A DNA stretch of 61,195 nt from Fibrobacter sp. (GCA_012511955.1 JAAZFC010000035.1:1-61195); one strand, 5' to 3'; numbered from the stretch's first letter, positions 5,113-27,592 are shown. Numbers and translations: made by a program. Notes: generated from the letters alone by a model not told the origin.

Positions 5113-5197
5113 TCTGCTATAACGAGTATCGCGCAATTGAGGTATTAGTCTCCATTCTGTTGGGGCAATGTTACTAAAACTCATAAATGAGTTAAAT

Positions 5198-5713: not shown

Positions 5714-5723
5714 GCGCACATTA

Positions 5724-5897
5724 CCTGATAAGCGGTTTTTTGTGGGCAGAACCCATGCTATTGCATTTTGGAATGCTAAAACTTTCAACCAAGATCTTAG
5801 CGACTGGGATGTAAGCAAGGCCACGGATATGGAAGACATGTTTGAAGGTAGCGCTCTTTCCTCCGACAATTACCATAAAATGTTATTTTTTATATAA
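5724..5897 (+). pseudogene. DUF285 (BspA-like) repeat-protein fragment
   Basis: No complete gene lies between 5714 and 5925, but the frame ending at TAA 5895-5897 encodes AFWNAKTFNQDLSDWDVSKA followed by TDMEDMFEGSAL. This is the unmistakable DUF285 surface-repeat signature (FNQDLS-WDVS-VTDM--MF). Only about one repeat and a partial lead-in (LPDKRFFVGRTHA) remain and no start codon or signal peptide is seen. It is the decayed end of a once larger cell-surface repeat protein. Confidence 0.7.
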
Positions 5898-5925
5898 TTA
5901 AAGTGTCTGTAATTACGGAGGCTTT

Positions 5926-7152: not shown

Positions 7153-7173
7153 AATTGTTGCTATTTTTACACC

Positions 7174-9238: not shown

Positions 9239-9239
9239 T

Positions 9240-10007: not shown

Positions 10008-10089
10008 TATCATAGAATAAGCGTAAAGTTTAATATTAATGTTAAAGTAATAGAGTTATATTTTTATTGATGTTTTTATAGGTAATAAG
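10003..10089. promoter_or_regulatory. mlaF-mlaD spacer with a 12 bp palindrome
   Basis: The otherwise tight mla operon has an 82-base gap here. It starts with the perfect palindrome TATGATATCATA (10003-10014). TATCATAGAATAAG (10008-10021) recurs with one change at 23880-23893. It could be a protein-binding site, a processing hairpin or an internal promoter; the sequence does not decide. Confidence 0.3.
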
Positions 10090-11073
10090 TTGCAAGTTTT
10101 AAAAAAAATTAAACACTTCCGTTGGAATGACTTTGCAGGGCTTTTGGTAGGCGCTGCCATAGCAACTTCTGCCATAATTTTAGCTGCAACTATTTTTCTG
10201 ACGCTTCAGGTTAAGGGTGTTATTGGAGTAGATGAATATCAATTGCACTGCTTATTCGATAAAGGCTTAGGCTTACGAGTAGGTACTAAGGTCCAAGTTA
10301 ATGGCGTAGAAGTAGGGCGTGTTAGTAACTTAGAACTCACTAAAACTGGGAAAGTTAAGCTCACTTTTACCATAAAAAAAGCATATCAGCCATGGATCAC
10401 TTCTGACGCTACAGTTTATGCCACTAGGGATCAAAACTTAATTGCCGAAAGAGTGATAAACATAGACCACCCATCTCAAATCCCCTTAAACCCTCAACAT
10501 ATATTACAAGATGGCCAAGAAATCCATGCGGGACAAGCCCAAGATATTGAAACCGTAGTGGAAAAAGCCATAGAAATTCTGGATATGGCGGAAAGAGTGG
10601 CTTTAAATATTGATAAAATGCTATTAATGGCCTTAGACTCTAACACTACCTTAGGATTGTTATTAAATTCACGGTTAATTTACGATAAGCTACTTGAACA
10701 AGTAGATAAATTAGATTTGATTACAACTAGTACAGATGATTTACTCAAAGATTTAAAAATCAAAATCCCAACCTTACTGGATTCCACCGAAAGCGCAATT
10801 AATACTGTGGCAGAAGTGGGAGAAAAGCTTAATACATTTAGTGATGGCGCCATAGAAATTTTAAATTCCTTGGACACTACAATTTATGCAGTAAATCTTG
10901 TACTTAATGACTTGCAAATAATTACTAAAAGCGCTGGAGAATTGCTTACGGATGGAGAAATGAAGCTGGAAAGAATAGATGGCTTAGTTTCTGGACTTTC
11001 AAACTTTCGATTTATACAAAAACGCATACCCCAAAAAGATACTATTCCCATTTTTAGTGAGGAACAATGGTAA
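10090..11073 (+). CDS. mlaD: MCE-domain lipid transport protein MlaD
   Basis: A 327-residue membrane-anchored periplasmic substrate-binding ring subunit. One transmembrane helix lies at about 18-42 (LLVGAAIATSAIILAATIFL). The MCE domain follows (about 48-130), with FDKGLGLRVGTKVQVNGVEV and GRVSNLEL. A long coiled-coil C-terminus completes it. The start is TTG with only a weak AGGT site; the ATT-rich upstream frame offers no better codon. The next gene overlaps it by seven bases. Confidence 0.92.
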   Translation: MQVLKKIKHFRWNDFAGLLVGAAIATSAIILAATIFLTLQVKGVIGVDEYQLHCLFDKGLGLRVGTKVQVNGVEVGRVSNLELTKTGKVKLTFTIKKAYQPWITSDATVYATRDQNLIAERVINIDHPSQIPLNPQHILQDGQEIHAGQAQDIETVVEKAIEILDMAERVALNIDKMLLMALDSNTTLGLLLNSRLIYDKLLEQVDKLDLITTSTDDLLKDLKIKIPTLLDSTESAINTVAEVGEKLNTFSDGAIEILNSLDTTIYAVNLVLNDLQIITKSAGELLTDGEMKLERIDGLVSGLSNFRFIQKRIPQKDTIPIFSEEQW

Positions 11074-11928: not shown

Positions 11929-13623
11929 ATGACTCTTAACAAAACATTATTGTCCAAAATTTTCATGAGATCAGCCCAACCTATGGTGTTAACCAGCTCC
12001 ACAGGTACTGTTTTGGCTCTAAATGATGCGTTCACTGACTTAACCGGATATACCTCTAAAGATTTAGTGGGAAAACCACCGCTGGCTTTCAATTTTAAAA
12101 GCAGGGCAAATCAAACCTACGAAGACCTAGAGCAAGCTTTAGTAGATACTGGTTTTTGGGAAGGCGAAACCCTAGAAAAACGCATAGATGGAGAAGCTAT
12201 CCCCTGTTGGGTTAAAATTGAAAGAATTGATGAAAAAGATGATAAATCAGGAAGTTTTTTATACTTAGGTTCGCTTAAAGATTTAAGCGATGATAAACTT
12301 GTAGAAAGAAATCTCTACCGAGCTAGTAATTACGATTTACTAACTAGAATTCCCAACCGCAACTTATTTTTAGACCACCTGCGTAAAAACACTTATGATG
12401 CAAATATAAACAAAGGGCAATTCGCAATTATTTGCCTTGATTTAGATCAATTCAAAAGCATTAATGAATCTTATGGTATGAGAGTTGCTGACGATATTTT
12501 ACTTATTGTAGGCGATAGATTATTACGCAATTTTGCAGAAAACAGTCAAGATAAGACCTTTATCGCACGCATTGGTGGTAATGAATTTGCCATTTTTGTT
12601 AATAATCTTTACTCTAAAGAAGAAATGTTTGCTTATGCGCGACAAGTGCAAAATGTATTGGCAGAACCTTTTAACGCCAGAGGTAAACCCATCACTCTAA
12701 CTTGTAGTTGTGGCGTCAGTCATTTTCCCAGCTCTGCCACTGATGCCGATGAACTTATGCGCAGTGCCCAACACGCTTTGAGTATCGCCAAAGAATCTGG
12801 CAATAGTAGCGTAGTTTTTTATGATCACTCCATGGCAAAAAAGGCCCAAGAGCAAATGCAAATAAGCTCTGGTTTACGCAGAGCCGCAACCAACAATGAA
12901 TTTGAACTTTATATACAACCTAAGTTTTCTTCAGAAAAAAAATTAACCAGCGCAGAAGCTTTATTAAGATGGAATGATCCAGTAAATGGTATTATTGGGC
13001 CCGATAAATTTATACCTATTCTAGAAGAAAGTGACTTAATTCACGAAGTGGGCCAATGGGTTGTTGACGAAGCTTGTAAATTGGCCACTAAAATTCACGC
13101 TTTAGGCTTAAAAGACTTTAAAATAGCCGTAAATATCAGTCAAAAACAGTTTGAAGCTTTTGATTTTTACAAAAACATTATGAAAGTTTTAAGTGCTAAT
13201 GGTTTTGATGGCGATAAACTGGAATTAGAACTCACTGAAAGCACTATTGCGCAGAGCCCAGACTTCGTTGCTGAGACCTTAGGTCGCCTTCGTAAAGCTG
13301 GTATTAGCATAGCCATTGATGATTTTGGCACAGGCTTTTCCTCTTTAGCAAGCCTTTCACATTTCCCCCTAGATACCCTTAAAATAGATAGAGCCTTTAT
13401 CAAAGGAATTGGCGCTGGAAAAAACAGCGAAAACATTATTTCTACCATTGTAGCCATTGCCGAAGCATTGAATTTAAACATCGTTGCTGAAGGGGTGGAG
13501 ACAGAAAGACAGCTTAAATTTGTGCTTAATAATAACATTGATGAAATACAAGGTTTTTACTTTAGCAAACCATTGCCATATCAAGAATTTATAGATTATA
13601 TCAGCAGTTTAGGCTTTATTTAA
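11929..13623 (+). CDS. PAS-GGDEF-EAL c-di-GMP phosphodiesterase, probable
   Basis: A 564-residue cytosolic signalling protein. A PAS domain (about 10-120, NDAFTDLTGYTSKDLVGK) is followed by a GGDEF domain (about 130-300) whose signature is GGNEF at 215-219 instead of GG[D/E]EF, so cyclase activity is doubtful. The EAL domain (about 315-560) retains SAEALLRW, NISQKQF, ELTES, IDDFGTGFSSL, KIDRAFI, AEGVE and QGFYFSKPL, consistent with active c-di-GMP hydrolysis. The likely net role is a PAS-controlled phosphodiesterase. Its 3' end overlaps the convergent uvrC by eight bases. Confidence 0.9.
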   Translation: MTLNKTLLSKIFMRSAQPMVLTSSTGTVLALNDAFTDLTGYTSKDLVGKPPLAFNFKSRANQTYEDLEQALVDTGFWEGETLEKRIDGEAIPCWVKIERIDEKDDKSGSFLYLGSLKDLSDDKLVERNLYRASNYDLLTRIPNRNLFLDHLRKNTYDANINKGQFAIICLDLDQFKSINESYGMRVADDILLIVGDRLLRNFAENSQDKTFIARIGGNEFAIFVNNLYSKEEMFAYARQVQNVLAEPFNARGKPITLTCSCGVSHFPSSATDADELMRSAQHALSIAKESGNSSVVFYDHSMAKKAQEQMQISSGLRRAATNNEFELYIQPKFSSEKKLTSAEALLRWNDPVNGIIGPDKFIPILEESDLIHEVGQWVVDEACKLATKIHALGLKDFKIAVNISQKQFEAFDFYKNIMKVLSANGFDGDKLELELTESTIAQSPDFVAETLGRLRKAGISIAIDDFGTGFSSLASLSHFPLDTLKIDRAFIKGIGAGKNSENIISTIVAIAEALNLNIVAEGVETERQLKFVLNNNIDEIQGFYFSKPLPYQEFIDYISSLGFI

Positions 13624-15421
13624 TACCCTTAAGCTTTTCCCAAACTTTAATTCCTAAATACTCGACTTTCTCCGCTTCACTAGCCGCTAAAAAGCCTCTT
13701 TTAGTTTTCCATTTACGGAGAATTTTGTTTTGAGTTTTAGGCCCGACTCCCGGTATATTTTGCAACCATTGTACTTGCATACGCTTCATGCGTAGCTTGC
13801 GCTGGTAACTTAAAGCAAATCTATGGGCTTCATCTCGCATTTTTTGCAAAAGTTTTAAAGCGGGACTATTTCGCTTCAAACTTAGCACATCTACAGTGCC
13901 GGGACGATAAACTTCTTCTAAACGCTCCGCCAGTCCTATCACCGGCAACTCCGCAATTCCCAAAGATTTCACCACCGCCCAAGCTGCCTCCACCTGCCCT
14001 CGCCCTCCATCTATCACCAACAGATCTGGCAGAGCTTTTTCTTCGTTAAGCAATCTTTCTAAGCGGCGACCCACCACTTCGCGCATACTGGCGTAATCAT
14101 CTACCCCATCGACGCTTTTTATCTTATAACGCCTATAACCAGATTTGTACGACCTACCATTTTTAAAGCTTACCATAGAAGCCACGGTATCTGTGCCCTG
14201 CAAATGGGAAATATCAAAGCATTCGATGTTCAAAGGGGTATGCGCCAGCTGCAACTCATTTTGCAATTCAAAGACCGCGCGGTTTATTTCGTCATATTTT
14301 ATTTGCTGGGCTTTTTGCTCTACCAAAATCATCTCCGCATTGGCTTGAGCCAGGCGCAAATAGCGTACTTTTTCTCCCCGCTGGGGTATATGCAAGCGCA
14401 CTTTGCGACCCGCATGGGCCGAAAAAGTCGCGGCGGTGAGCTCCATATCTTCCCAACCCACTTCTACCACTAGCTCTCGGGGAATTGTGCCCGCATCTAA
14501 ATACCAGCCAGGCAAAAATTCTGCTAAAATCTCCCCTTCGTCTTGTTCGAGCTCGCAATCCAAGACAAAATGGCGACGACCGGCCAGCTTACCGCTACGA
14601 TATTCTAAAATCACCACACAGCCGATAGTGCCGCTGCGGCGGACAGCCACCACATCTAAATTTACCCCCGCATCGGCCACATCGGCGTCTTGTTTTTGCG
14701 TGAGCGCATTTAACGCGGCAATCTGATCGCGCAAACGCGCCGCCTCTTCAAAAGCCATTTTTTGGCTGGCGCTTTGCATTTGCTCGCGCCATTCAGTGAG
14801 CAAATCTTCGCGTTTACCTTCTAATAAGCGCATAGCCAAGTCCACTTGCATCGCATATTGCTCTTGGCTAAATTTGTGAGCGCATGGCGCATCGCAACGC
14901 TTAATATGCCAAGCTAAGCAAGGCCGTATAGGGGACTTTAAAGGCAGTTTTAAATCGCATTCCCTGATGCGAAACAAGCGGGGCAAAAGCTCTAGCAACG
15001 ATCTCATGGCGCGAGAGTTTAAAAAAGGACCGAAATAAGCATTGCCATCGTCTCGCACTCGTCGCACCACTAGCACCCTGGGAAAAGCTTCGTTGAGCGT
15101 AACCATCAAATAAGGAAAGCGTTTATCATCTTTTTGGCGCACATTGTAGCGCGGACTATGCTTGCGTATTAAGTTCGCTTCTAAAACCAAAGCTTCTTGT
15201 TCAGTTTCCGTAATAACCCACTCAATATCTGCAATATGAGGCAACATTAATCCAGCGGCACGATGCCCGCTTTTTTGTCTGCCATCAAAATAGCTGCGCA
15301 CCCGTTTATTTAAGCTCTTTGCCTTGCCAATATATATGATTACTCCGCGCTAATTTTTCATCAAATAAACGCCAGGCAGGGCTGGTAGCTCGGCTAAACG
15401 CGTTTTTAAATGGTGGCTCAT
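13616..15421 (-). pseudogene. uvrC: Excinuclease ABC subunit UvrC, interrupted by an in-frame TAG
   Basis: UvrC makes both incisions in nucleotide excision repair. The full frame runs from ATG 15421 (MSHHLKTRLAELPALPGVYL) to TAA 13616, 601 codons, the usual size, with UVR, RNase H-like and C-terminal HhH (NIPGVGPKTQNKIL) regions. Codon 24 is TAG (15350-15352), inside the GIY-YIG nuclease domain just before RGVIIYIGKAKSLNKRV. A restart at GTG 15301 would give 561 residues lacking the Tyr-Ile-Gly core. TAG closes other genes here, so recoding is unlikely. It is either real loss of the 3' incision domain or a base error. ATG directly follows the TAA of the cotH-like gene. Confidence 0.85.
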
Positions 15422-18208
15422 TTAATCAAAATTAGCAACTAATAGCCCTCCAGGCACAGGCACCCACAATCTTTCCGCCGCGGTTTCGCCATCGCTCCAG
15501 CCTGCAAAGCTCCGCCCCGTTGGGGCCACCGCTTTTAGTCGCAAAGCTTGGTCGGCATACCAAGTTCCATGAAATTCATCTAGTGGCAAAGTCAAACCGT
15601 TGACCTGAATAAAGCCGCCTGCGCTTTGCAAAGTGGCGCTCACATCTGGCCCTAAATCAAACTGCTGTCTGGTAAAATCACGCAAATATCCCGGTCTAGT
15701 CATGGCAAAATTGCGAATTTTCTGTTCTTCTTCTTTAAAAGTGCTGGCTTTTAGATTCCAGCGTTGCTGATCTCGTTGGGGCTCGTTGCCCAAAGCAGCC
15801 AACATATTGTCTATTATACCATTGATGCGTTCCCCGGTAAAATGCCAAGACAATAGCACCGCCATTCTATTGCTAAAATCTTCCACAAATTGCATGTCTT
15901 CAAATAATTTGCGAAACAGCAAAGTATGTTGGGGGCCATTGGGCCAGTCAGGTCCATTGGTGGCCGTAATAAAGTTATAGGTATTGAAATTAGCGCTAGG
16001 TCTTGCATTACCGCCAGCATAACTATCAAAACCAAAATCCATATCGTACATTATCCAGCGCCAGCGATTATGAGGATAAACCGCACTCCAAAACTTCATA
16101 TTATTGCCTGGCCAATCAGTGTTATTTGTAAACAATTCCAGCGATAAATAATCCATGAAATTATCCATATCAATAGTAGCGCGCACTCTTTCCCTATTAG
16201 CTGTGGCGTTCATATCTGCGGTTTCTAGCCATTCTGCAAAGTCACGCCAATCCACTGCCGAGCCTCTCTTTAATGACCCTCCTGCTAAGAGCATATTCAC
16301 CACGCTCTTGTCGTAACCGTAATTGGTGGGAATATAGTTGCTGTTGCTTTTTTCTCGCAAACCATATATACCCCAATACTCACCATTTATATAAACCACC
16401 GCAGGACGGTAATTTTGACAGTCAATCTGCAAACCTTGGGCGAGTTCCACAGCTAAATGATCGCGCAAATAATCCCTTTCAGTATTATTGCCCCCATTGC
16501 GTAAAACTAAGGATTTGAATTCTTTTAAGTGTTTATGTTGGGGGAAAACTGGGTAAGTTAAACTTTTAAGCCCGTACTTTTCTCTAAAGTGCAAAGACAA
16601 GCTTTTCTTTTTAAAAGATTTACTCCAGTTTCCAAAAATCTTTAAACCCGCAGGAGCAGAAAAACCTTTTTGACCATTAGCTTCAAATAAGCTTACATTT
16701 GCGGATATTTCTATATCTTTCCAAAAATTTGCCCCAAAGTGCGGTTGTTTAGCCTCAGCATTAGGTCCCATACTGTAAATCCCTGTATCGGGGTCAAACA
16801 TCGTATGTGGATCCACAGCAATGGAAATCACAGGTACCGTAGTCTGGTCAGCAATAAAGTAAGTTCTACTTTCCACGGGCCCTGGCATCCCTTGATCGGG
16901 AATGCTACGCATACGCACCACTGTAGTTTTATTAATCGCTATGGCTTGGGAATACAGCTGTGAATTAAGATTGGGTTCTGACCCATCGGTGGTATAATAA
17001 ATGTTCTCTCCTGCTTGGGTATTGAGTTCTAACAAAACTGGTTCCGGATAAAAGCCCTCATCTAAAGCGGCAATCACCCTAGAACCCTTTTGGCCAAAAA
17101 CAACCTCGTTAGCTTCACTAGGAGTACAGGGATCTTGATATCCCCATTGGCCTGCGCTATTCATGGCCCAGGACATATCTACTCCTAGCTCGGGATAACT
17201 AAGAGTATCGCGAATAAAACCGTCGGGGTCGCTTAGCCATAAATAACCGCCTTTTTTACTTAGCTTAAAGTTAGTATGGGGGTAGCCCACTTGCCCTAAA
17301 GCTCTTATATCATTAAAAACAAAAGAAATGGTATCTTGCCCTGCCGGGGCTTCTATAACTAGAGCCCATAATGCGGAAATATCTGGGTAACCACTTTTAG
17401 GTAACTCAATGGTATAAACTCCGTTGGAATCCCCCGTGCCATCAATATAAGTCACCCAACTTTCCCACTCTTCTAAGTCCGCTTGAGCCAAACGAATCCC
17501 CAATCTTTTGCCTTTTTGCAAATACCCTTTGAGCTCCACAACTCCGCGCTGACCAAAATCTATACTTTCTTTCCCATTCCAACTTAAAAAGTTCATCACT
17601 ACCTTACTAGCGGTCCAACCTAGCTGAGTGCGAGAATTGTCCCCCACCATTAAGGTAGCAGAAAGCCCACGTTTGCCTGCAATGAGCCCTGTAACTGATT
17701 CGGGAAAGTAATTAAACCAAACCTCACTATTACCAGGGGGATCATTTTGGCCGTCTGCCCACGAATATGCAAATTCTGTAAGAAGATTAATATCTTCTTG
17801 GGGCGGCGGCATATCCACCAAATTCTTTTTAGACATAAATACCGTAATGTAAGTCTGAGGCGGAACTATCACATTACCAAAAACCCAACGGCGCTTTTGA
17901 TCGAAACGGTCTGTTAGCGCATAACCCGACATATCCACAGGAATTTCGTGGGGGTTATAAAGTTCAATCCAGCCGGGATCATTGCCTTCAAAATCTTTAT
18001 AAGACGCATTAAAAGATGCAACTTCAGTGATAAATACAGGCGCATTACCTATAAAAAACGAATCCAACACCGATTGCTTGGTGTTAGAATTATAATCTAA
18101 AGAAGAATCTTCCACATTAGGAGGATTATCAACATCAACCTCTGCAGGTTTTTTGTCAGCGCAACTCCACAACAAAAAAACCAGCCAAAAACTTAGCCAT
18201 AACTTCAT
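15422..18208 (-). CDS. CotH kinase-like lipoprotein with lamin-tail and chitobiase-like domains
   Basis: A 928-residue surface lipoprotein. The ATG at 18208 has GGGATGAG upstream and gives MKLWLSFWLVFLLWSC with Cys16 lipidated; the upstream ATG at 18217 lacks a ribosome site. Visible domains are a lamin-tail domain (about 45-155, DPGWIELYNPHEIPVDMSGY), a jelly-roll carbohydrate-binding-like region (about 195-300), a chitobiase/beta-hexosaminidase C-terminal-like fold (about 385-455, YYTTDGSEPNLNSQLYSQ), CotH (about 500-760, YINGEYWGIYGLREK and IMYDMDFGFDSY), and an InlB-like repeat tail (TGRSFAGWSDGE). CotH proteins are atypical kinases. It is divergent from the VTC operon and abuts uvrC. Confidence 0.88.
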   Translation of the reverse strand: MKLWLSFWLVFLLWSCADKKPAEVDVDNPPNVEDSSLDYNSNTKQSVLDSFFIGNAPVFITEVASFNASYKDFEGNDPGWIELYNPHEIPVDMSGYALTDRFDQKRRWVFGNVIVPPQTYITVFMSKKNLVDMPPPQEDINLLTEFAYSWADGQNDPPGNSEVWFNYFPESVTGLIAGKRGLSATLMVGDNSRTQLGWTASKVVMNFLSWNGKESIDFGQRGVVELKGYLQKGKRLGIRLAQADLEEWESWVTYIDGTGDSNGVYTIELPKSGYPDISALWALVIEAPAGQDTISFVFNDIRALGQVGYPHTNFKLSKKGGYLWLSDPDGFIRDTLSYPELGVDMSWAMNSAGQWGYQDPCTPSEANEVVFGQKGSRVIAALDEGFYPEPVLLELNTQAGENIYYTTDGSEPNLNSQLYSQAIAINKTTVVRMRSIPDQGMPGPVESRTYFIADQTTVPVISIAVDPHTMFDPDTGIYSMGPNAEAKQPHFGANFWKDIEISANVSLFEANGQKGFSAPAGLKIFGNWSKSFKKKSLSLHFREKYGLKSLTYPVFPQHKHLKEFKSLVLRNGGNNTERDYLRDHLAVELAQGLQIDCQNYRPAVVYINGEYWGIYGLREKSNSNYIPTNYGYDKSVVNMLLAGGSLKRGSAVDWRDFAEWLETADMNATANRERVRATIDMDNFMDYLSLELFTNNTDWPGNNMKFWSAVYPHNRWRWIMYDMDFGFDSYAGGNARPSANFNTYNFITATNGPDWPNGPQHTLLFRKLFEDMQFVEDFSNRMAVLLSWHFTGERINGIIDNMLAALGNEPQRDQQRWNLKASTFKEEEQKIRNFAMTRPGYLRDFTRQQFDLGPDVSATLQSAGGFIQVNGLTLPLDEFHGTWYADQALRLKAVAPTGRSFAGWSDGETAAERLWVPVPGGLLVANFD

Positions 18209-18217
18209 ATAACTCAT

Positions 18218-18379
18218 CCCAAAACAATACTATTTTATAATTATACTACTATTTTATAAAAAAGCACGATATATTAGTGTTGTCTATTTAGTCAACCCTT
18301 TTATGTAACTATATTGTTTATCCATTGTTTGTTTCTAAAAATAACCTATTTTGCCAATGTAGTTTAAGTTGGAGTATTC
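18218..18379. promoter_or_regulatory. Divergent promoter region between cotH-like and DUF4956 genes
   Basis: This 160-base AT-rich spacer separates two divergent transcription units. ACTATTTTATAA occurs twice (18229-18240 and 18248-18259), 19 bases apart, close to the start of the cotH-like gene. TTGGAG before the ATG at 18380 is the ribosome site of the + operon. Promoter hexamers are plausible in several places (TATAAT-like runs), but none can be chosen with confidence. Confidence 0.45.
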
Positions 18380-19063
18380 ATGATTGACCTACTAGCATTG
18401 CAGTCAAGTTCTGCGCACCCGACCATTATAACTCTGGTCTATACTTTGCTTTTGGCCTTTTCTTTGTCTAGTGCTATAGCCTATGTCTATGAAAAAACTT
18501 TTATGGGCTTGTCCTATTCACGAAATTTTGTGCAGGCTTTAGTTTTGAGTTCCATTGTCGCTGCCACTATAATGCAGGCCATTGGCGACAATGTGGGTCG
18601 AGGTTTGGGTATGATGGGGGCTCTCGCCATCGTGCGTTTTAGAGCGAACTTTAAAGACCCGCGCGATATTATGTTCCTTTTTGCCAGTTTGGGCGCAGGA
18701 ATTGGATGTGGTGTTTTTGCATGGGGAATAGCTATTGGCGGAACCATCGCTTTTATAATAGCTGCTTTTATAGTTTCTCGTGCCGGTTTAGGAAATCGTC
18801 ACTTTTTTGATGGTTTATTGCGTTTTAGCATGCCCAATGAATCTGAAGCCCGCTTAGAATTAGAGAAACTACTGAAAAAACATTTAAAGATATTTGTCCT
18901 AGTTACCATGCGAGAACTAGAAGGCGGTAAGCGTTTAGATTGCGCTTATCAAATCCGCCTTAAAAACAAAAAAGGTGCTGCGGACATGTTAACAGATTTA
19001 GCAAAAATTGATGGGCTTTCAGGGACGCATTTTTTAATGCAAGAAGCCACTACGGAGATGTAA
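18380..19063 (+). CDS. DUF4956 membrane protein
   Basis: A 227-residue protein with three or four membrane spans in residues 15-140 and a soluble C-terminal domain. The conserved DUF4956 core is visible: GALAIVRFRANFKDPRDIMF followed by LFASLGAGIGCGV. This family is repeatedly found beside VTC-domain polyphosphate polymerase-like proteins and CotH proteins, exactly as here; its biochemical role is not established. It is the first gene of a tight five-gene operon, one base before the HlyD-like gene. Confidence 0.85.
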   Translation: MIDLLALQSSSAHPTIITLVYTLLLAFSLSSAIAYVYEKTFMGLSYSRNFVQALVLSSIVAATIMQAIGDNVGRGLGMMGALAIVRFRANFKDPRDIMFLFASLGAGIGCGVFAWGIAIGGTIAFIIAAFIVSRAGLGNRHFFDGLLRFSMPNESEARLELEKLLKKHLKIFVLVTMRELEGGKRLDCAYQIRLKNKKGAADMLTDLAKIDGLSGTHFLMQEATTEM

Positions 19064-19064
19064 A

Positions 19065-20243
19065 ATGCGCCGATTTATAGCTTGGATTATTGCCATTGGT
19101 GGAGTGTTTTTTATTTCATGGATGTATCAAGGTGAAGCCACTAATTTTTATGGTATTGCCGAAGCCACTGAAACCACAGTAAGCGTACAAAATGCCGTGG
19201 ATGTAATTAGAGTCCATGTGGTTCCTGGACAAGAGGTTAATAGTGGCGACACCTTAGCCGAACTCAGCAGACCTGACTTGACTATGCGCATAAACGAAGT
19301 CAGCCGCGAACTCGATGCGTTGCAAGGTCGGACTGGACTTTCCACAGCGGGTATAGACCAAAGGGTAGCTGAGGTTAAAGCAGACCTACAAAGTCGTCGC
19401 AACTCACTCTTATTTGAAATCGAAAAGCTTAAAAATGAACTCGCTCGCAACTTAGAACTAGCTTCTAAATTAAAAAGCCTTTCTTCGGGTAGCATTCCCA
19501 CTCCCAGTGGCGGAGATGCCATGTCTTTGCGCATTCAAAGCCTGGAACGCGAACTAGAAATGGTGGAGCAAAACGCCGAAAGTCAAATTAAACTTTTGAG
19601 TGGCAGTCGCGGCTTGCAACATCAAAGTAGCAGAGCCGAAGTTGATGCTCTACAAAAAGAAATGGAATTGCTGCTCTTAGAGAAAAAAGCCTTAACTATT
19701 ATTTCTAATGGTAATTGGGTAGTTGCTACGGTTAGCGCTCGTGAAGGAGAAAAGATATCATCTTTTAATCCGATTTTAACCTTAACTCGTAAATCTCCCT
19801 CCATTGTTCGTGGTTTTATCCACGAACAAGTTTATAACAAAATTAGCGTAGGCGATTCTGTAGAAGTTCGTTCATCTGCCGATCCTAATTCCCGCATGCA
19901 AGGGGAAGTGGTAGGCATGGGTAGTCGAATTGTGGAATTTCCCGAAAGATTGCGCAAAGTTCCCGAAATCTTAGTTTATGGGCGAGAAGTTACTATAAAA
20001 ATCCCTGAAGATAATGATTTCTTGCTAGGAGAAAAAACGGCTATAGCTGTTAAAGCATGGAAAAACATAATTCAACACGAAAAAAGCCAAGCAGAAAAAG
20101 TCATATCCGAAAAGCCACAACCTGAGAACGCTCTGCCTGAAAAGATTCAAACCGAACCGGTTCAATCCGTGAATACTAAATCAGAGAAGCCTAAAACTGA
20201 ATCGGTTAAATCAGAGAATATTCAACCTGAGTCTGAAGAATAA
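19065..20243 (+). CDS. HlyD-like periplasmic adaptor protein
   Basis: A 392-residue membrane-fusion protein linking an inner-membrane exporter to an outer-membrane channel. It has an N-terminal anchor (FIAWIIAIGGVFFISWMY), the first half of a biotinyl-lipoyl domain (VHVVPGQEVNSGDTLAELSR), a coiled-coil hairpin (about 75-200), the second lipoyl half and a barrel (VRGFIHEQVYNKISVGDSVE). The last 55 residues are a degenerate Glu/Lys/Pro/Gln repeat tail (SEKPQPE, PEKIQTE, SEKPKTE). GGAG precedes the ATG. It pairs with the outer-membrane gene downstream; no ABC or RND pump gene is in the operon. Confidence 0.88.
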   Translation: MRRFIAWIIAIGGVFFISWMYQGEATNFYGIAEATETTVSVQNAVDVIRVHVVPGQEVNSGDTLAELSRPDLTMRINEVSRELDALQGRTGLSTAGIDQRVAEVKADLQSRRNSLLFEIEKLKNELARNLELASKLKSLSSGSIPTPSGGDAMSLRIQSLERELEMVEQNAESQIKLLSGSRGLQHQSSRAEVDALQKEMELLLLEKKALTIISNGNWVVATVSAREGEKISSFNPILTLTRKSPSIVRGFIHEQVYNKISVGDSVEVRSSADPNSRMQGEVVGMGSRIVEFPERLRKVPEILVYGREVTIKIPEDNDFLLGEKTAIAVKAWKNIIQHEKSQAEKVISEKPQPENALPEKIQTEPVQSVNTKSEKPKTESVKSENIQPESEE

Positions 20244-20245
20244 TT

Positions 20246-21532
20246 ATGAGAGTAACTTTTTTGACATTTTTGTTTTTCTCAAGCCTAGCTTGGTCAGTTC
20301 CCCTCACCTGGGAAAACTTATTGGCATCAGCACTAAATGACCCTTCTATGGAAGCATCAGAAAAAAAAATGCAGCTGCTGAGCACTGGGCCTACTCCTAA
20401 ATTATGGAGTGACCTAGAGTTGCGTTATAAAGCAGAAATGGGTATGATGAATCATAAATTTGAAGCCCGTTTAAAGCCTGCTAAAATCGGAGAAAATGCT
20501 GCGCTTAAAAATTACTGGGCAGCTTTGGGTAATTACCACAAAGCTCAAGCCACAAGCACGCTATCAGAACTTATACATAGGCGCTACAATTTAGCTTTGC
20601 GCTACTTAACTCAACAAGCTGAAATTGAAATTCACGAAAAGTTGTACCAAGCTAACCAAGATCGCATACAAGTCTTGCTAGCTCTTAGCGGCACTGAAGA
20701 CTTTAATCCTTCGGATTTAGTAGAAGCACAAGAGAAAGACGCCGAGCTTAAAGCCAAAGTTTATGAATCTCTAAACACCCTCAACGAAATTGCCTTGCGC
20801 CTACAAGTTTGGGTTCCAGAGTCTGACACGGTTATTTTAGATACATCTTGGCTGCCACCAGTGGAAAGCATTCAACAGCGCATAACCGCAGCCCCCCCTG
20901 TGGTAGATAGTACTTACCCTTTGCTTTCTCGTGCTCATACCAAATACAAAGCCAATGAGGCTCGTATTGATTTGGAAAATGTGGGAGACAACTCTGTTTT
21001 AAAATATGTAGGAGTTCGTTATAATTGGACTGTGGCCAAAAAGAAATATGAATACATTGGCAATCAGCTTACCAACACTTTGGTACGCAAAGATGATAAC
21101 ACTCGCATCATAGACCGCTGGCAACTTAGCGCTGGTTTTACCGTACCCTTTTTCGCTAGCAAAGGCGATTCTAAAATGCGCCGTCAATTAGATCAACTAG
21201 ATCGAGAAAGCGATTATTTAGCTGACAAATACTCTTTAGAGCAAGAAGTTTCCCGTTTACGCGAAGAAATTGGTGCTTTATTCCAACAGCGCACCATACA
21301 ACAGGAGTTCACCGAAAGAGTAGATGCGGGTAGTCTCTTCCAGGATTTCGCTGTACACGCTGGTTCAAACCCCTTGTTGCTTCTTAAAGCTTCAGAAAGC
21401 TCACTTAGCAGTACATTGCGCAGCATTCGCTTAGAACATGAAATATATAGACGATATTTAGTGTTATTGCAGCTAACTGGTGCATTTAGCGACAAAAAAG
21501 TAACCAACCATCTCAAGGCAGGTTTAGAATAA
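20246..21532 (+). CDS. TolC-like outer-membrane efflux protein
   Basis: A 428-residue protein with a cleavable signal (MRVTFLTFLFFSSLAWS), alternating long coiled-coil helices (NYWAALGNYHKAQATSTLSE, EAQEKDAELKAKVYESLNTL) and beta segments (KYVGVRYNWTVAKKKYEYIG, RWQLSAGFTVPFF), matching outer-membrane efflux (OEP) architecture. It follows the adaptor gene by two bases and shares its last base with the VTC gene. It would supply the outer-membrane exit duct of the system. Confidence 0.85.
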   Translation: MRVTFLTFLFFSSLAWSVPLTWENLLASALNDPSMEASEKKMQLLSTGPTPKLWSDLELRYKAEMGMMNHKFEARLKPAKIGENAALKNYWAALGNYHKAQATSTLSELIHRRYNLALRYLTQQAEIEIHEKLYQANQDRIQVLLALSGTEDFNPSDLVEAQEKDAELKAKVYESLNTLNEIALRLQVWVPESDTVILDTSWLPPVESIQQRITAAPPVVDSTYPLLSRAHTKYKANEARIDLENVGDNSVLKYVGVRYNWTVAKKKYEYIGNQLTNTLVRKDDNTRIIDRWQLSAGFTVPFFASKGDSKMRRQLDQLDRESDYLADKYSLEQEVSRLREEIGALFQQRTIQQEFTERVDAGSLFQDFAVHAGSNPLLLLKASESSLSSTLRSIRLEHEIYRRYLVLLQLTGAFSDKKVTNHLKAGLE

Positions 21533-22335
21533 TGTCAGCTAAAGCTCGTGGATTTAGTTTGCTAGAGCGTTTTGAGCTCAAGTACCACATCCCCGTGGAA
21601 TGGGCTGATGATATTGGTAGGTTTATCGCTCCATATTGCGAAGAAGATCACTATTCGCAAATCACCCCAGGAAACTTCTATTGGATAACCAACCTATATT
21701 TAGATAGTAATAGTTGGACTTTCTTTAACTGGCGCAAAAGGGGTCTTTGGGATAGATTTAATATGCGCATTCGCACCTATGGAATACAGCCTGACCCCGA
21801 AGGTATTTTTCATTTTGAAGTAAAAAGAAAGCTTGGTCGTATAAGCACCAAAAGCCGCGCCACCCTCAAAGATAAAAACCCCATACATATATTTGAGACT
21901 CCAGAACCAGACTGGGAAGTAGAAGAAAAACACCGAGCTTTTCTAAAAGATTTTATGTTTAGAGTTGAGACTCATCAAGCACGCCCCCGTTTGCTTACCC
22001 AATATAAACGCCGTGCATGGTTTGGACTCAACGAAGAGTATTCTCGTGTTACCATCGACACCAGTATGCGCTGGCGCGAAGAAAACGGTTTTAATTATCA
22101 TGTAGATCCCGCAAAAATGAATGATTCGGGCTATCCACGCTACTTTTTACCAGGCACCGATGCGGTACTTGAACTGAAAGCTCCAGCTAAGCAAGTCCCT
22201 TATTGGATGGTTGACTTAATTAGACATTTTGATTTGCGTTTACGCAGTTTTTCCAAATTTGGTTCCGCCGCCCAAGAATTTATGAATATATATGGAGTAG
22301 ATGGACATTCGCACAGAACCCCTGTTTATGCCTAA
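21532..22335 (+). CDS. VTC-domain (TTM superfamily) polyphosphate polymerase-like protein
   Basis: A 267-residue cytosolic protein of the triphosphate tunnel metalloenzyme fold. Tunnel-lining residues are visible in the expected order: RFELKY near the start, YLDSNSWTFFNWRK, FNMRIRTYG, FHFEVKRK, TQYKRRAW, RVTIDTSMRW and ELKAPAKQVPYWM. The eukaryotic VTC4 relative makes polyphosphate from ATP; bacterial members often sit with DUF4956. The gene lacks membrane spans of its own, so DUF4956 may be the membrane partner (inference). Start and stop overlap the neighbours closely. Confidence 0.88.
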   Translation: MSAKARGFSLLERFELKYHIPVEWADDIGRFIAPYCEEDHYSQITPGNFYWITNLYLDSNSWTFFNWRKRGLWDRFNMRIRTYGIQPDPEGIFHFEVKRKLGRISTKSRATLKDKNPIHIFETPEPDWEVEEKHRAFLKDFMFRVETHQARPRLLTQYKRRAWFGLNEEYSRVTIDTSMRWREENGFNYHVDPAKMNDSGYPRYFLPGTDAVLELKAPAKQVPYWMVDLIRHFDLRLRSFSKFGSAAQEFMNIYGVDGHSHRTPVYA

Positions 22336-22345
22336 GGAGATAAGC

Positions 22346-23845
22346 ATGTTAAAAAAAATCTTAATTCCACTTACCACTTTAATGTTTCTATTTGCTTGCC
22401 AACAAGGCGGTGCAGATCCTGGGGAGATTATTGAAGAACAAAAAAATGATCCCAAAGCCACAAAACTGCAATGCAACGAAGTAATGTATTTCGCTGGTGA
22501 ATACGATGAACTTGAATGGATAGAAATTGAACTAGTTCAAGGGGAAGATATTAAAGACATGGCAGAAAAGCTTATGCGTTTAGAAAAAGCCGTAGAGTTC
22601 CAATTTCCCGCCGAACCACTTAAAGTTAATGAAAAAATAGTCGTTACTAACGATACCAACGCGTTTAGAGCTAGATACCCTGTTGCTGACTACCCAGTAC
22701 GCTTATTTGGTCCCTTTGAAGGCCGTTTAGATAATGCAGGTGAATTAGTGGATATAAAAATTAGTGGAAAAGGCGATGCTAGTTGTCAATTTAGCCCAGA
22801 ACCACCCTGGCCAACTTTAGCAGCTGGCTATGGACATAGTTTAATTTACATTGATGGAGATGAATCTCGTCCTGAATCTTATGGCGCTAGTGTCGCTCAA
22901 GGGGGTTATCCTGGTTTAGAAAAGCAAGTGGTGGAATCCATTGGCGTTTTGGTTAACGAAATCATGCCTTCTGGCACTGCGACTAATCCTGGTTGGGTAG
23001 AAATATACAATCCTACGAAAAACAGCATTGATATTAGTGGTTGGGAATTAACAGAAAGTATAAATGTCAGTGGTTTTAATTTGCCTGCCAATACTATTGT
23101 TGAAGCAGAGGGCTTCTTAGTTATCGAAGAAGCTGATTGGGCTGATAACTTCTACCCTCCCCCCAATGGTGGCGAAGTTGTGCTCAAACAAATAGTTAAT
23201 GGTGATTGGACTGGAGTCACCACTGGTCTAAGCTATCCTGCACTAGCAGAAAACCAAACTGCTGGAGTAATAGAGTTAAGCGACGGTAATTTATCTCGTT
23301 CAATTTTAAAAACAGCAACCAAAGGAAAAGCCAACTCAGAAGTATTCGCTGGTCCTATTCGCATTTCAGAATTCCATTATAACCCCCCTGAAGCTTATGC
23401 TGAATATATGGAGTTAGTTAATGCTAGCGAAGAAGATGTGGTACTAACCAACCCATGGCGTATCAAAGGAATAGCCTTTACTTTTGATGCCGCAGACAAC
23501 TATGTGGTTCCCCCCCAAGGAAAACTACTAATGTTTCGCTTAGATCAAGCAGGATCTGAAGAAAACTTTAGAAATATGTACAATATCCCAGAAGATATTA
23601 TATGCATTCCCTATGAGAGTCGCCTTTCTAACCGCGGTGAATTAATTACCCTTATTATGCCCATAACCCATGCAGGCGGAGGCATTGGTTTAAGCTGGTC
23701 AGATGTGGTAAATTATTCTGACCGTGGTTTTTGGCCTGGTGAAGCAGATGGTTACGGTAAGGCACTGAAAAGAGTGGATTTACACGCTTCTGGCGAGGAT
23801 TCAAAAAACTGGGTAGCAGCTGATCCAGCCCCCGCTCAAAAATAA
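22346..23845 (+). CDS. Lamin-tail-domain lipoprotein
   Basis: A 499-residue lipoprotein. The ATG at 22346 has AAGGAGATAAGC upstream and gives MLKKILIPLTTLMFLFACQQ with Cys18 lipidated. Three lamin-tail-like units are visible: about 37-145 (ending GRLDNAGELVDIK), about 190-310 (NPGWVEIYNPTKNSIDISGW) and about 335-470 (ISEFHYNPPEAYAEYMELVN, ending RLSNRGELITLI). The same fold occurs in the divergent CotH-like protein. It is probably a surface-exposed structural or binding component of the operon. Confidence 0.82.
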   Translation: MLKKILIPLTTLMFLFACQQGGADPGEIIEEQKNDPKATKLQCNEVMYFAGEYDELEWIEIELVQGEDIKDMAEKLMRLEKAVEFQFPAEPLKVNEKIVVTNDTNAFRARYPVADYPVRLFGPFEGRLDNAGELVDIKISGKGDASCQFSPEPPWPTLAAGYGHSLIYIDGDESRPESYGASVAQGGYPGLEKQVVESIGVLVNEIMPSGTATNPGWVEIYNPTKNSIDISGWELTESINVSGFNLPANTIVEAEGFLVIEEADWADNFYPPPNGGEVVLKQIVNGDWTGVTTGLSYPALAENQTAGVIELSDGNLSRSILKTATKGKANSEVFAGPIRISEFHYNPPEAYAEYMELVNASEEDVVLTNPWRIKGIAFTFDAADNYVVPPQGKLLMFRLDQAGSEENFRNMYNIPEDIICIPYESRLSNRGELITLIMPITHAGGGIGLSWSDVVNYSDRGFWPGEADGYGKALKRVDLHASGEDSKNWVAADPAPAQK

Positions 23846-23877
23846 TTTCACAAAGCTTGCACCACCATAATTATATT

Positions 23878-23910
23878 GGTATCATAAAATAAGTTTTATG
23901 GTACCTTTTT
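23878..23910 (+). terminator. Probable intrinsic terminator after the VTC operon
   Basis: GGTATCATAAAA (23878-23889) pairs with TTTTATGGTACC (23894-23905), 12 bp with one G-T wobble and a four-base TAAG loop, followed by TTTTT. This has the form of an intrinsic terminator for the upstream operon, though the stem is AT-rich. It ends only eight bases before the next ATG, so it could also control that gene. Confidence 0.55.
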
Positions 23911-23913
23911 AAT

Positions 23914-25185
23914 ATGTTTTTGAGTAAAAGAATAATTTCCAGCTTTAGAACCCAAGAGCTCTTATTAATGTGCTTGGTGGCTATCACCATAGCTGCGCCC
24001 ATTTTACATCATTTTAGTTTAAATAAAAGCGTAGTTTGGGAGTTTCCCACAACTATGAAGACTGAAATAGTTAATGACCATGCTGATGGTGGAAGTTCAA
24101 TCGCACAACTAATTTACACAGACTCTTCTCTAATTTTAAGCTACTCATTGCAACCTGGTTCTAACTTTCCTTTGGCTGGTATAAAATTTCATACCGCAGA
24201 AAACGAAAAAGGGAAAAACCTCACTAATTTTGATAGCGTCAAAGTTTGGCTTAATAGCACTGATACCATCAATACGGTAAAGATTATTTTCAAAAACTAT
24301 AATCCTGCATACTCCACCATTGACGATCCAGTCTCTTTCAAATACAATGAAATAGAATATAAACCAAACACCCACGAATCTCCTTTTTCTTTTGCCATAC
24401 AAGATCTTACTGTACCTTCTTGGTGGATAGGACAAAGACAGATTCCCATTGAACATATACGCCCAGACCTGTCAAATATTGTAGAGTTAGAGATCCCCAC
24501 TGGTTCCACTCATAAAATTAATAACGCTCAAATTGAGTTATCAAAAATTGTGCTTTCTGGTAAATATATAGCCGCAGAAGTTCTGTATTTATTTATCCTT
24601 TTTATATGGATGTTTTCTGCTGTGGCCTATCTAGTTTTTAGATTTTTGCATCAAATTTCATTAAATAAGGAATTGAAAAAGCAATCAGAAAACCTGAAAA
24701 CAGCTGCAGAACGAGACAGTCTAACCCAAACTCTCAACCGTAATGGTATGTTCAATAAAATAGAAGAGCTAAAAAACCTCCCTCCTGAACACAGTTTCCC
24801 CATTTCTGTAATTATGATGGATATAGACTTCTTTAAGAAGATTAATGACACTTATGGACATGCTGTGGGGGATGAAGTTCTTAAAAACTTTACTGTACGC
24901 ATTCAAGGTACTATTCGCAGCAGAGACTTACTGATACGCTGGGGAGGAGAAGAATTTATTGTTATTTGCCTTAACACTCATTTGAAACAAGGGGTGATTT
25001 TAGCTGAAAAACTTCGCCAATCTCTGATAGACACCCCCATACATAATCTAATGTCAGTGCGCATAAGTTGTGGCGTAGCTTCCACTAGTCATTGGGATAT
25101 CGAAGAAGTTATAGAAAAAGCAGATATGGCTCTTTATCAAGCTAAAAGTCAAGGACGCAATAAAGTGTGCCATACTCCAGTGTAA
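23914..25185 (+). CDS. Membrane diguanylate cyclase with periplasmic sensor domain
   Basis: A 423-residue protein that should make c-di-GMP. A membrane helix lies at about 14-33. A periplasmic beta-rich domain of about 180 residues, resembling carbohydrate-binding jelly-rolls (DSVKVWLNSTDTINTVKIIF), is followed by a second membrane helix at about 222-247. The GGDEF domain has DSLTQTLNRNGM, MDIDFFKKINDTYGHAVGDE and intact GGEEF at 344-348, preceded by the RSRD inhibitory site at the canonical five-residue spacing. The periplasmic domain may sense a sugar or an envelope ligand (inference). No Shine-Dalgarno is seen. Confidence 0.9.
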   Translation: MFLSKRIISSFRTQELLLMCLVAITIAAPILHHFSLNKSVVWEFPTTMKTEIVNDHADGGSSIAQLIYTDSSLILSYSLQPGSNFPLAGIKFHTAENEKGKNLTNFDSVKVWLNSTDTINTVKIIFKNYNPAYSTIDDPVSFKYNEIEYKPNTHESPFSFAIQDLTVPSWWIGQRQIPIEHIRPDLSNIVELEIPTGSTHKINNAQIELSKIVLSGKYIAAEVLYLFILFIWMFSAVAYLVFRFLHQISLNKELKKQSENLKTAAERDSLTQTLNRNGMFNKIEELKNLPPEHSFPISVIMMDIDFFKKINDTYGHAVGDEVLKNFTVRIQGTIRSRDLLIRWGGEEFIVICLNTHLKQGVILAEKLRQSLIDTPIHNLMSVRISCGVASTSHWDIEEVIEKADMALYQAKSQGRNKVCHTPV

Positions 25186-25209
25186 AGAAATTTGCTAAAT
25201 TTTATATTT

Positions 25210-26550
25210 ATGGAACCAAAAATACACAACTTTAATTGTCCATACCCCATTGAAAGTACAGACTTTAACATAGCTGATATAGGCGAACCTACTCTTAAAT
25301 CGCCCATTATAGGACAAAAATTTATTGACCCCAACCACCGAGTGTCGCTTTTTACCGACGAAAGAGATTTAAACCAGTGGCAAGAACGCAATCTTCCCAT
25401 ACCTTCCCTGGAAAGAGCAGGCCCTCGAGAAAAAATCTACCACGATTCCGCTTGGGCACGGGTGGGCATTGTAACTTGTGGCGGCTTATGCCCCGGTTTA
25501 AATAATGTCATCAAAGGTTTAGTACAGGTTTTATGGTTTGACTACAATGTACGCCATATTTTTGGTATCCCTTATGGTTATAGAGGCTTAAACCCCTCTT
25601 TTGCCCATGCCCCCATAATACTCAACCCCGAATATGTGGACTCTATCCACGAAGTGGGAGGGACTATTTTAGGTAGTTCTCGTGGTATGCAAGATACCGC
25701 CACCATGGTTGATACCCTTATGCGTTTAAATATAAACATCCTTTTTGCCATTGGCGGAGATGGTACTTTGCGAGGCGCTCACGCCATAGCCGAAGAAGTT
25801 AAAAAACGCAATCAACGGATTTCTGTGATAGGGGTGCCCAAAACCATAGATAACGATCTAAACTTAATTGATAGAACTTTTGGTTTTGAAACCGCTGTAT
25901 ATATAGCTTCCGATATAATTGCCAACTCTCATGTAGAAGCCAATGGAGCCTATAATGGCTTAAGCATTGTGAAACTTATGGGTAGAGATTCTGGATTTAT
26001 CGCCGCCTATGCTAGTTTAGCTAATACTGTAGTAAATTTTTGCTTAATTCCCGAACATCCTTTTGAATTAGAGGGGGAAAACGGCTTGTTTAAGGCACTG
26101 GAAGAGCGATTTGCCATAGGTAAGACCCATGCAGTACTAGTAGTGGCCGAAGGCTCAGGACAGCATCTTTTCGAAGCAGGAAACACTCAAACCGATGCTA
26201 GTGGCAATATTTTACACAATGATATTGGCGACTTTTTAGTGAAAAAAATTAACAAGCACTTTAAAAGCATTGGTAAAGAGCTTAATATCAAATATTTCGA
26301 CCCCAGCTATATAGTGCGATCCGGACCTGCCAAGGGCACCGATGCTATTTTCTGTTACCAATTGGCTGAAAATGCCGTGCATGCAGCAATGGCAGGAAAG
26401 ACTGATATGGTGGTGGGCTCTTGGTCTGGTCAATTCACCCATGTGCCTATTGAATTGGCTGTCTGTGAACGCAAAAAACTTGATACCACTGGTCCTTTAT
26501 GGAATGCGGTGCTTAGTGCTACTCGCCAAAGAGATTACGGTTTAAGATAA
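25210..26550 (+). CDS. pfkA: 6-phosphofructokinase, plant/TP0108-like clade
   Basis: A 446-residue glycolytic kinase converting fructose-6-phosphate to the 1,6-bisphosphate. The ATG at 25210 is preferred over a TTG 18 bases upstream. Motifs include GIVTCGGLCPGLNNVIKGLV, GGDGTLRGAHAI, PKTIDNDL and MGRDSGFIAAYA. Gly follows the Asp in GGDG (E. coli position 104), which favours ATP, while Lys in PKTIDND (position 124) is the residue of PPi enzymes and of long ATP-PFKs. ATP dependence is most likely but unproven. No good ribosome site is visible. Confidence 0.9.
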   Translation: MEPKIHNFNCPYPIESTDFNIADIGEPTLKSPIIGQKFIDPNHRVSLFTDERDLNQWQERNLPIPSLERAGPREKIYHDSAWARVGIVTCGGLCPGLNNVIKGLVQVLWFDYNVRHIFGIPYGYRGLNPSFAHAPIILNPEYVDSIHEVGGTILGSSRGMQDTATMVDTLMRLNINILFAIGGDGTLRGAHAIAEEVKKRNQRISVIGVPKTIDNDLNLIDRTFGFETAVYIASDIIANSHVEANGAYNGLSIVKLMGRDSGFIAAYASLANTVVNFCLIPEHPFELEGENGLFKALEERFAIGKTHAVLVVAEGSGQHLFEAGNTQTDASGNILHNDIGDFLVKKINKHFKSIGKELNIKYFDPSYIVRSGPAKGTDAIFCYQLAENAVHAAMAGKTDMVVGSWSGQFTHVPIELAVCERKKLDTTGPLWNAVLSATRQRDYGLR

Positions 26551-26551
26551 T

Positions 26552-26785
26552 TTAATCTGCTTGATAGCCTTCTGTTGCCAATATTTCTTTTATTTTATCT
26601 ACATCTACTTCTTGAAATAGTTGCAAACGACGGTTTTTAATATCGATACGATATTTTTTCACCCTATTATTTTTTAAAATGGCATCTATGCGTCCAGCAC
26701 AATGATGGCAACTCATAGACGAAATGTGCCAATCGTGAATTGGTGTTTTAGCTGTGGTGTTTTTCTTAAAAAATCTTTTTAACAT
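26552..26785 (-). CDS. HMA-domain metal-binding protein
   Basis: A 77-residue protein with the heavy-metal-associated fold. The metal-binding CxxC is C26-H-H-C29 in SSMSCHHCAGRI, and the beta-alpha-beta-beta-alpha-beta pattern ends with VDVDKIKEILATEGY. It resembles copper chaperones such as CopZ, but the basic N-terminal 15 residues are extra. No copper ATPase is nearby. It is three bases downstream of mutM and probably co-transcribed. Confidence 0.75.
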   Translation of the reverse strand: MLKRFFKKNTTAKTPIHDWHISSMSCHHCAGRIDAILKNNRVKKYRIDIKNRRLQLFQEVDVDKIKEILATEGYQAD

Positions 26786-26788
26786 AGC

Positions 26789-27592
26789 TTACTCTTTTTG
26801 GCATTGAGCGCAGTAAAAAGTGCTACGCCCATTTTGGTTAATTTTTGTAATGATATTTTCACATTTAGGACAAGGCAAGTCTTCTTTTTGAAATACCTGG
26901 AGAAAATTCTGAAAACCGCCACTTTTCCCATCGCTTAGCCTATAATCCGAAAAAGTAGTTCCCCGGTTTTCAATGCTTTTGCGCATAATGCGTCTAAGCT
27001 CTCTGACCAAAGCTCGACTTTCTGCTTCGCTCAGACTGTTTGCGGGCCGCAGGGGATTTATGCTAGCAGCAAACAGCGCTTCGCTGGCGTAAATATTCCC
27101 CACTCCCGCCACATTGCGTTGATTTAAAATCCAGCCTTTGATATGCACCGCGCTGCGCCGACTTTTTCCGTATAAATATTTGCCGCTAAAGTTCCGAGCT
27201 AAAACATCGGGGCCAAGATTTTCCCAACGAGGAAATTTGTGCTCCATTGGCATCAAATTCCAATAGCCAAAACGACGCGGGTCGGTATAAATAAGCTGCC
27301 CCCCAGACTTAAAATCTAAAATCAAATGGCTATGCTTTTCTATTTCTCCATTTACTCGCAAAACGCCACTCATACCCAAATGCAGTAAAAACTTGTAATC
27401 ATCTAGGATAAACTGCAAATATTTACCATGGCGGAGTATTTCTCTTAAAGTTTGCTTTTTTAGCAAACTTAAATCCAAAGAATTCGGATCCAAAAGAGAA
27501 TCTGTCTTATATGCACGCACTTGATTTATCTCGTTGCCTATTAAATCAACTAAGCCCAAACGGATGGATTCAACTTCAGGTAATTCTGGCAT
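26789..27592 (-). CDS. mutM: Formamidopyrimidine-DNA glycosylase
   Basis: A 267-residue base-excision repair enzyme that removes oxidised purines such as 8-oxoguanine. The start is fixed by MPELPEVE, where Pro2 and Glu3 are catalytic, with GAGAGG as ribosome site; a longer frame upstream overlaps the neighbouring gene and is not used. LHLGMSGVLRV, the helix-two-turn-helix (NQRNVAGVGNIYASEALF) and the C-terminal zinc finger (CPKCENIITKI, then CAQC) are intact. Confidence 0.96.
   Translation of the reverse strand: MPELPEVESIRLGLVDLIGNEINQVRAYKTDSLLDPNSLDLSLLKKQTLREILRHGKYLQFILDDYKFLLHLGMSGVLRVNGEIEKHSHLILDFKSGGQLIYTDPRRFGYWNLMPMEHKFPRWENLGPDVLARNFSGKYLYGKSRRSAVHIKGWILNQRNVAGVGNIYASEALFAASINPLRPANSLSEAESRALVRELRRIMRKSIENRGTTFSDYRLSDGKSGGFQNFLQVFQKEDLPCPKCENIITKINQNGRSTFYCAQCQKE

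Follow-up and report, generated by a model that had tools for sequence, protein, structure and literature searches.

We analyzed a 61,195-nucleotide stretch of DNA from Fibrobacter sp. (GCA_012511955.1 JAAZFC010000035.1:1-61195; hereafter, the window), in which five adjacent genes at 18380–23845 encode a DUF4956 membrane protein, an HlyD-type adaptor, a TolC-like channel, a VTC-domain enzyme, and a lamin-tail-domain (LTD) lipoprotein. Open reading frame (ORF) calls and Pfam searches confirmed the presence of this set, first described in a first-pass annotation of the same sequence, together with a divergent CotH gene. All five operon ORFs lie on the plus strand and the CotH ORF lies opposite. 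That the five genes form a functional unit is well supported, and we lean towards the view that they constitute one trans-envelope system that would make and secrete a phosphate polymer via VTC, DUF4956, HlyD, TolC, and LTD/CotH. The features of the locus are as follows.

15422–18217, minus strand: surface lipoprotein with CotH, LTD, and CHB_HEX_C domains, the divergent neighbor and a recurrent, non-obligatory partner (Pfam CotH, 2.3e-46)
18218–18379, no strand: divergent intergenic region, A+T-rich, presumed site of both promoters (from the sequence)
18380–19063, plus strand: DUF4956 membrane protein, 227 amino acids, proposed inner-membrane polymer channel (Pfam, 3.5e-11)
19065–20243, plus strand: HlyD/EmrA-type periplasmic adaptor, 392 amino acids, with a membrane anchor at the N-terminus (Pfam HlyD_D23 and HlyD_3; TIGR00998)
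20246–21532, plus strand: TolC-fold outer-membrane channel, 428 amino acids, of a divergent family (AlphaFold and Foldseek)
21532–22335, plus strand: VTC-domain triphosphate-tunnel enzyme, 267 amino acids, proposed polyphosphate polymerase (Pfam VTC, 2.1e-31)
22347–23845, plus strand: LTD lipoprotein, presumed surface partner (Pfam LTD, 3.5e-23; AAGGAG ahead of the ATG)
23878–23905, plus strand: terminator-like hairpin at the operon end (12-pair stem and T tract)

Taking the ATG at 22347 as the LTD start, intergenic spacing along the operon is 1, 2, −1, and 11 bp; this start behind the AAGGAG motif is the most likely one, the alternative being a longer ORF from 22301 that overlaps the VTC gene. 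Across the loci surveyed, the median gap is −1 between TolC and VTC and −4 between HlyD and TolC, and such overlapping or almost touching genes suggest translational coupling; no fusions among the core genes were found across the loci examined. Consensus promoter matches in the intergenic region (18218–18379) were no more numerous than in shuffled sequences, and an Rfam scan of window positions 15000–27000 gave no match. Because the terminator-like hairpin intervenes, the GGDEF gene starting at 23914 is probably outside the operon. This diguanylate cyclase gene (23914–25185) lies directly 3' of the operon beyond the hairpin, and a cyclic di-GMP enzyme is also present in bifidobacterial VTC-DUF4956-CotH clusters (PMC7112168).

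The evidence for a functional unit is genomic throughout, and many of the surveyed genomes are metagenome assemblies. Among 168 Fibrobacterota genomes, 133 have DUF4956, 136 have VTC, and 107 have a member of the TolC-like family; in 100 of the 168, all three occur on one stretch. In the remaining 7 of the 107 TolC-like genomes, VTC or DUF4956 adjoins a copy, and the other genes either lie on a different contig or were not detected. The partner that accompanies VTC most constantly is DUF4956, present in 132 of 136 VTC-bearing genomes. Fourteen of 15 close relatives share the gene order (the 15th is interrupted by a contig end), and the DUF4956-HlyD-TolC-VTC(-LTD) order is also constant in other Fibrobacterota families. 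Cultured Fibrobacter genomes usually have a single copy of the system. In the Fibrobacterota VTC tree, enzymes from loci with the HlyD-TolC duct (duct-class VTCs) make up one side of a branch (support 96/93).

Outside Fibrobacterota, 63 loci from a wider genome search and from VTC surveys of three phylum-level groups were scored uniformly in six frames; they were chosen by VTC score, best first, a choice that may favor some classes, not HlyD as such. The full duct layout occurs at 13 of them and a second layout, HlyD-VTC-DUF4956 with no TolC gene, at 33, so that 46 of the 63 include HlyD. Two others show TolC-VTC at the edge of a contig, and HlyD is missing from the remaining 15. The full duct set was found in both VTC-bearing genomes of a small phylum (L139, L142), at eight loci in the second group, and at three in the third. 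The neighborhood survey for HlyD/OEP genes beside DUF4956 and VTC, which the first-pass annotation had proposed, thus revealed that HlyD, with or without TolC, recurs with both in several phyla. The same annotation had called the addition of an adaptor and duct without a pump unusual: the layout is not confined to this locus and recurs in four phyla, and no pump is consistently adjacent among the flanking families listed. When 82 VTCs are placed in one tree, those from duct-layout loci make up one side of a branch spanning four phyla (Shimodaira–Hasegawa-like approximate likelihood ratio test: 88). The duct layout needs a single change on this tree compared to a mean of 24.2 in shuffles (0/500 shuffles as low), and the three layouts jointly need 3 changes compared to 38.7 in shuffles.

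The VTC domain of the window protein scores 109.7 bits against a curated Pfam cut-off of 23, and a profile of 24 VTC proteins retrieves the yeast Vtc4 structures (3.5e-17). When K15 of chain 3g3q is set equal to Vtc4 K200, R264 and R266 fall exactly on window R79 and R81, and Vtc4 E426 is aligned to window E214. Twelve residues (K17, R79, R81, E96, K98, R109, R160, R172, E214, K216, S241, K242) are kept in 16/16 duct-class rows of alignment A1, and equivalents of the tunnel residues Vtc4 K200, R264, R266, K281, R361, R373, E426, and K458 are present. Of these, K200, K281, R361, R373, and K458 are positions that we take to be in the catalytic tunnel of Vtc4. Yeast VTC is impaired by R264A/R266A/E426N (PMC9911596). 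The first-pass annotation had named the absence of the tunnel Lys/Arg/Glu residues as a result that would speak against its reading; all of those checked are conserved, and such completeness favors a polymerase. Pfam detected the VTC domain alone in the 267-residue protein, with neither an SPX domain nor a fused Vtc1-like membrane domain, indicating that it is not a VTC complex of the eukaryotic type, though it may work like one. We propose the protein as a candidate polyphosphate polymerase using ATP. Neither PPK1 nor PPK2 was detected in this genome, and PPK1 is rarer in duct genomes (11/107) than in the other Fibrobacterota genomes (40/61), leaving VTC as the only polyphosphate-synthase candidate seen here. 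One VTC match of the survey (L143, G425:C35) begins with an SPX-like region and scores far higher than the bacterial proteins do; it appears to stem from a eukaryotic contaminant in the assembly.

The AlphaFold model of DUF4956 (predicted local distance difference test [pLDDT] 78) has several membrane helices followed by an ACT-like domain. R86 and R88 occur in every alignment row, and the duct-class rows, without exception or almost so, also have R48, R74, K92, and R95; these conserved basic residues sit within and beside membrane segments. No solved structure was matched by sequence. In yeast VTC, phosphate from ATP is added to a chain that is fed into a basic membrane channel, and altering basic channel residues abolishes vacuolar polyphosphate (PMC9911596); by analogy, DUF4956 may be the inner-membrane polymer channel.

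The adaptor matches Pfam HlyD_D23 (4.2e-8) as well as HlyD_3 and is closest to EmrA (TIGR00998 EmrA, 9.6e-14; PDB EmrA 8zar, 1.8e-7). Adaptors of the second layout match the window HlyD family at 98.6% probability in profile comparison, in addition to MacA, AcrA, and EmrA structures, and these profile and structure matches identify them as real membrane fusion proteins. The window TolC-like protein has no Pfam match of its own; a relative (L067) matches Pfam OEP (5.3e-5), and the AlphaFold model (pLDDT 86) retrieves TolC, OprM, and SilC with Foldseek (best E 7.5e-13). A plasmid search with the TolC-like protein gave no match. At some loci, a beta-propeller-like domain is fused to or follows the operon HlyD (L048:9391–11367, L050–L052, L055–L057, L196:4971–7049); its matches to SdiA-regulated, phytase-like, DUF3616, and DUF6929 families are weak, and it possibly handles the polymer.

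Pfam identified no ABC, RND, or MFS pump in the operon, and no pump family recurred consistently among the 25 commonest families listed for genes flanking 26 Fibrobacterota loci and 31 loci from other groups. CotH is the commonest family among 110 flanking proteins of the Fibrobacterota loci, with ABC-2 permeases in four proteins, and the commonest among 98 flanking proteins of the other loci are LTD, secretion tails, and CotH, a sodium symporter (three proteins) being the only recurring transporter among the families listed. An unrelated transporter that consistently uses the HlyD/OEP pair, the other finding that had been held to count against the earlier reading, was not found in these flanks among the families listed. 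The adjacent ABC-2 permeases were considered as users of the pair and set aside, since those examined are Fibrobacter genes that come with a separate OEP and HlyD. Some Fibrobacter carry such a separate OEP-HlyD-ABC2 export cluster a few kb downstream of the operon (L007:13371–16763, L015:10625–15654); it does not occur in the window.

At the presumed surface end of the system, the LTD ORF carries a lipoprotein signal (MLKKILIPLTTLMFLFAC), and LTD lipoproteins are almost constant in the Fibrobacterota operon. The divergent CotH/lamin-tail lipoprotein has a lipobox-like sequence (...LLWSC) and, counted from Met4, the 928 amino acids given in the first-pass annotation, or 931 from the first ATG; a sequence search against PDB gave no match. 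Of 25 Fibrobacterota duct loci, nine have a CotH gene nearby on the same strand as the operon, and no CotH gene was found in the fetched flanks of 15 close Fibrobacter loci. CotH is thus a divergent neighbor here and a recurrent one elsewhere, but it is absent from many homologous loci and has eight copies in the genome, and its link to the operon is weaker than the first-pass annotation implied. The eight CotH-domain genes of the 2.7 Mb genome (contigs C52, C97, C141, C81, C4, C79, and C86 of G000, and window 15683–16645) make up an extensive repertoire of putative kinase-like proteins at the surface. Elsewhere in the window, an N6 adenine methylase with a type I R-type N-terminal domain (a type IIG-like restriction-modification enzyme) is encoded at 214–2730, and lipid transport genes for an MlaE permease and MlaD (8366–11073) lie just upstream of a gene for a PAS-GGDEF-EAL protein (11929–13623).

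In the mechanism that we propose, cytosolic VTC would extend polyphosphate from ATP, and the growing, highly negative chain would pass straight into DUF4956 as an inner-membrane channel. The HlyD adaptor and the TolC-fold channel would continue the route through the periplasm and outer membrane to the surface, where LTD lipoproteins and, in many cases, CotH kinase-like lipoproteins may receive, anchor, or use the polymer. No ABC, RND, or MFS pump would be needed because chain growth itself would drive movement, as proposed for yeast VTC. We infer that the polymer is polyphosphate and the pore DUF4956, as well as the direction of transport, its energetics, and what the surface proteins do; use of exported polyphosphate by CotH is speculation.

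Several observations weigh against this export mechanism. We found in the literature, and know of, no biochemical test of any bacterial VTC-domain protein. The fold search with the DUF4956 model, itself of moderate confidence (pLDDT 78), returned no known channel fold, and a pump encoded elsewhere in the genome could still serve HlyD/TolC. The PPK1 counts given above are dominated by one genus. On a Hymenobacter volaticus plasmid (L125, NZ_CP095062.1), an HlyD-DUF4956-TolC trio at 4730–7985 has no VTC gene within about 15 kb, so that HlyD-DUF4956-TolC may carry something else, unless its VTC is encoded at another site. Most other Fibrobacterota clusters are VTC-DUF4956(-CotH) without the duct (L061, L062, L077–L086), so that VTC and DUF4956 can function in the absence of HlyD/TolC even in this phylum; both kinds of cluster occur in genomes G159 and G034. 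These duct-less clusters are also expected if VTC-DUF4956 polyphosphate reaches the periplasm only and HlyD/TolC exports a small molecule or protein through a co-regulated transporter encoded elsewhere, an explanation that we regard as unlikely, if still credible. It gains from the nearest solved adaptor being EmrA, the normal partner of the MFS pump EmrB, and from the missing TolC gene of the second layout, but it does not account for HlyD/TolC genes placed between DUF4956 and VTC, rather than at the edge, in four phyla, for the lack of a consistently adjacent pump, or for a layout that follows the VTC tree.

The published Gram-positive clusters bear on a further explanation. As the first-pass annotation had stated, VTC, DUF4956, and CotH are known neighbors: the same three families are adjacent in Gram-positive bacteria, where they lack HlyD/TolC and lie beside Pel genes (PMC7112168) or a glycosyltransferase gene, and VTC and CotH occur in C. 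perfringens NELoc-2 (PMC2879425). The Pel paper (PMC7112168) names the VTC enzyme as poly-phosphate polymerase; of the three papers found that mention DUF4956, none uses the name VTC alongside it, and we found no published version of the three-family cluster that bears HlyD/TolC. The absence of HlyD/TolC from a single-membrane Gram-positive cluster fits a duct added for the second membrane, although the duct-less Fibrobacterota clusters do not fit simply with that idea. The adjoining Pel genes (PMC7112168), or glycosyltransferase in NELoc-2 (PMC2879425), and the frequency of CotH as the leading neighbor family of Fibrobacterota loci would be explained if the product were a phosphorylated surface polymer and not free polyphosphate, with VTC forming or transferring phosphate groups on a glycan, lipid, or protein, DUF4956-HlyD-TolC exporting it, and CotH finishing it. 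We consider this quite unlikely, given that no consistent glycosyltransferase occurs in the duct-locus flanks among the families listed and that a VTC protein with all the Vtc4 residues looks like a polymerase. DUF4956 could instead be an MgtC-like regulator or sensor, in an assembly for phosphate/ion-stress efflux with VTC as a phosphate buffer; its similarity to MgtC is weak, as are the fold matches of its C-terminal ACT-like domain, the M. tuberculosis MgtC domain among them, and its position as the most constant VTC partner makes this very improbable. Operons of unrelated genes do exist, and the five could in principle have drifted together by chance in Fibrobacterota, but four phyla share the gene set and its order, and the VTC tree follows this arrangement, which renders a chance origin scarcely believable, and we rejected it.

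We know of no established dedicated route for polyphosphate export to the outside of bacterial cells, and a literature search found none. If correct, the proposed export mechanism would supply such a route, would assign roles to DUF4956 and to the TolC-like proteins missed here by Pfam, and would carry the yeast VTC principle of coupled synthesis and translocation over to bacteria and across two membranes, in a polymerase-powered tripartite envelope conduit. Our tentative proposal, for which we claim less than probability, is a class of secretion system in at least four phyla in which a polymerase replaces the tripartite pump and synthesis drives polyphosphate to the surface, where it would be anchored to LTD/CotH proteins or phosphorylate them. 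There is a real chance that the operon, which combines two known principles, represents a new class.

Among known systems, the eukaryotic VTC complex (Vtc1/Vtc3/Vtc4; PMC9911596) has the same tunnel residues, and pump-free, synthesis-coupled translocation has been proposed for it. In contrast to that complex, the window system has no SPX or Vtc1-type domain and DUF4956 would be the channel; its product must cross two membranes and the periplasm, and would leave the cell rather than enter a vacuole. Among bacterial loci, C. perfringens NELoc-2 (PMC2879425) shares its VTC and CotH genes with the window locus. Tripartite systems have been described with ABC, RND, or MFS pumps (PMC8277102), and EmrAB-TolC and HlyBD-TolC share the HlyD/EmrA-type adaptor and TolC-fold channel with the window system, whereas the window operon has a polymerase and DUF4956 in place of an adjacent pump. 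In cyanobacterial XcsAB-TolC cellulose export, a pump-free synthase-HlyD-TolC route has been proposed and is experimentally unvalidated (PMC12430437). As proposed for the window system, an inner-membrane polymer synthase would be joined by an HlyD-like adaptor to TolC with no dedicated pump; unlike it, XcsAB-TolC makes cellulose and its genes are scattered in T. vulcanus. Judged by its gene content, the window operon would fit synthase-dependent polymer secretion of this HlyD-TolC type.

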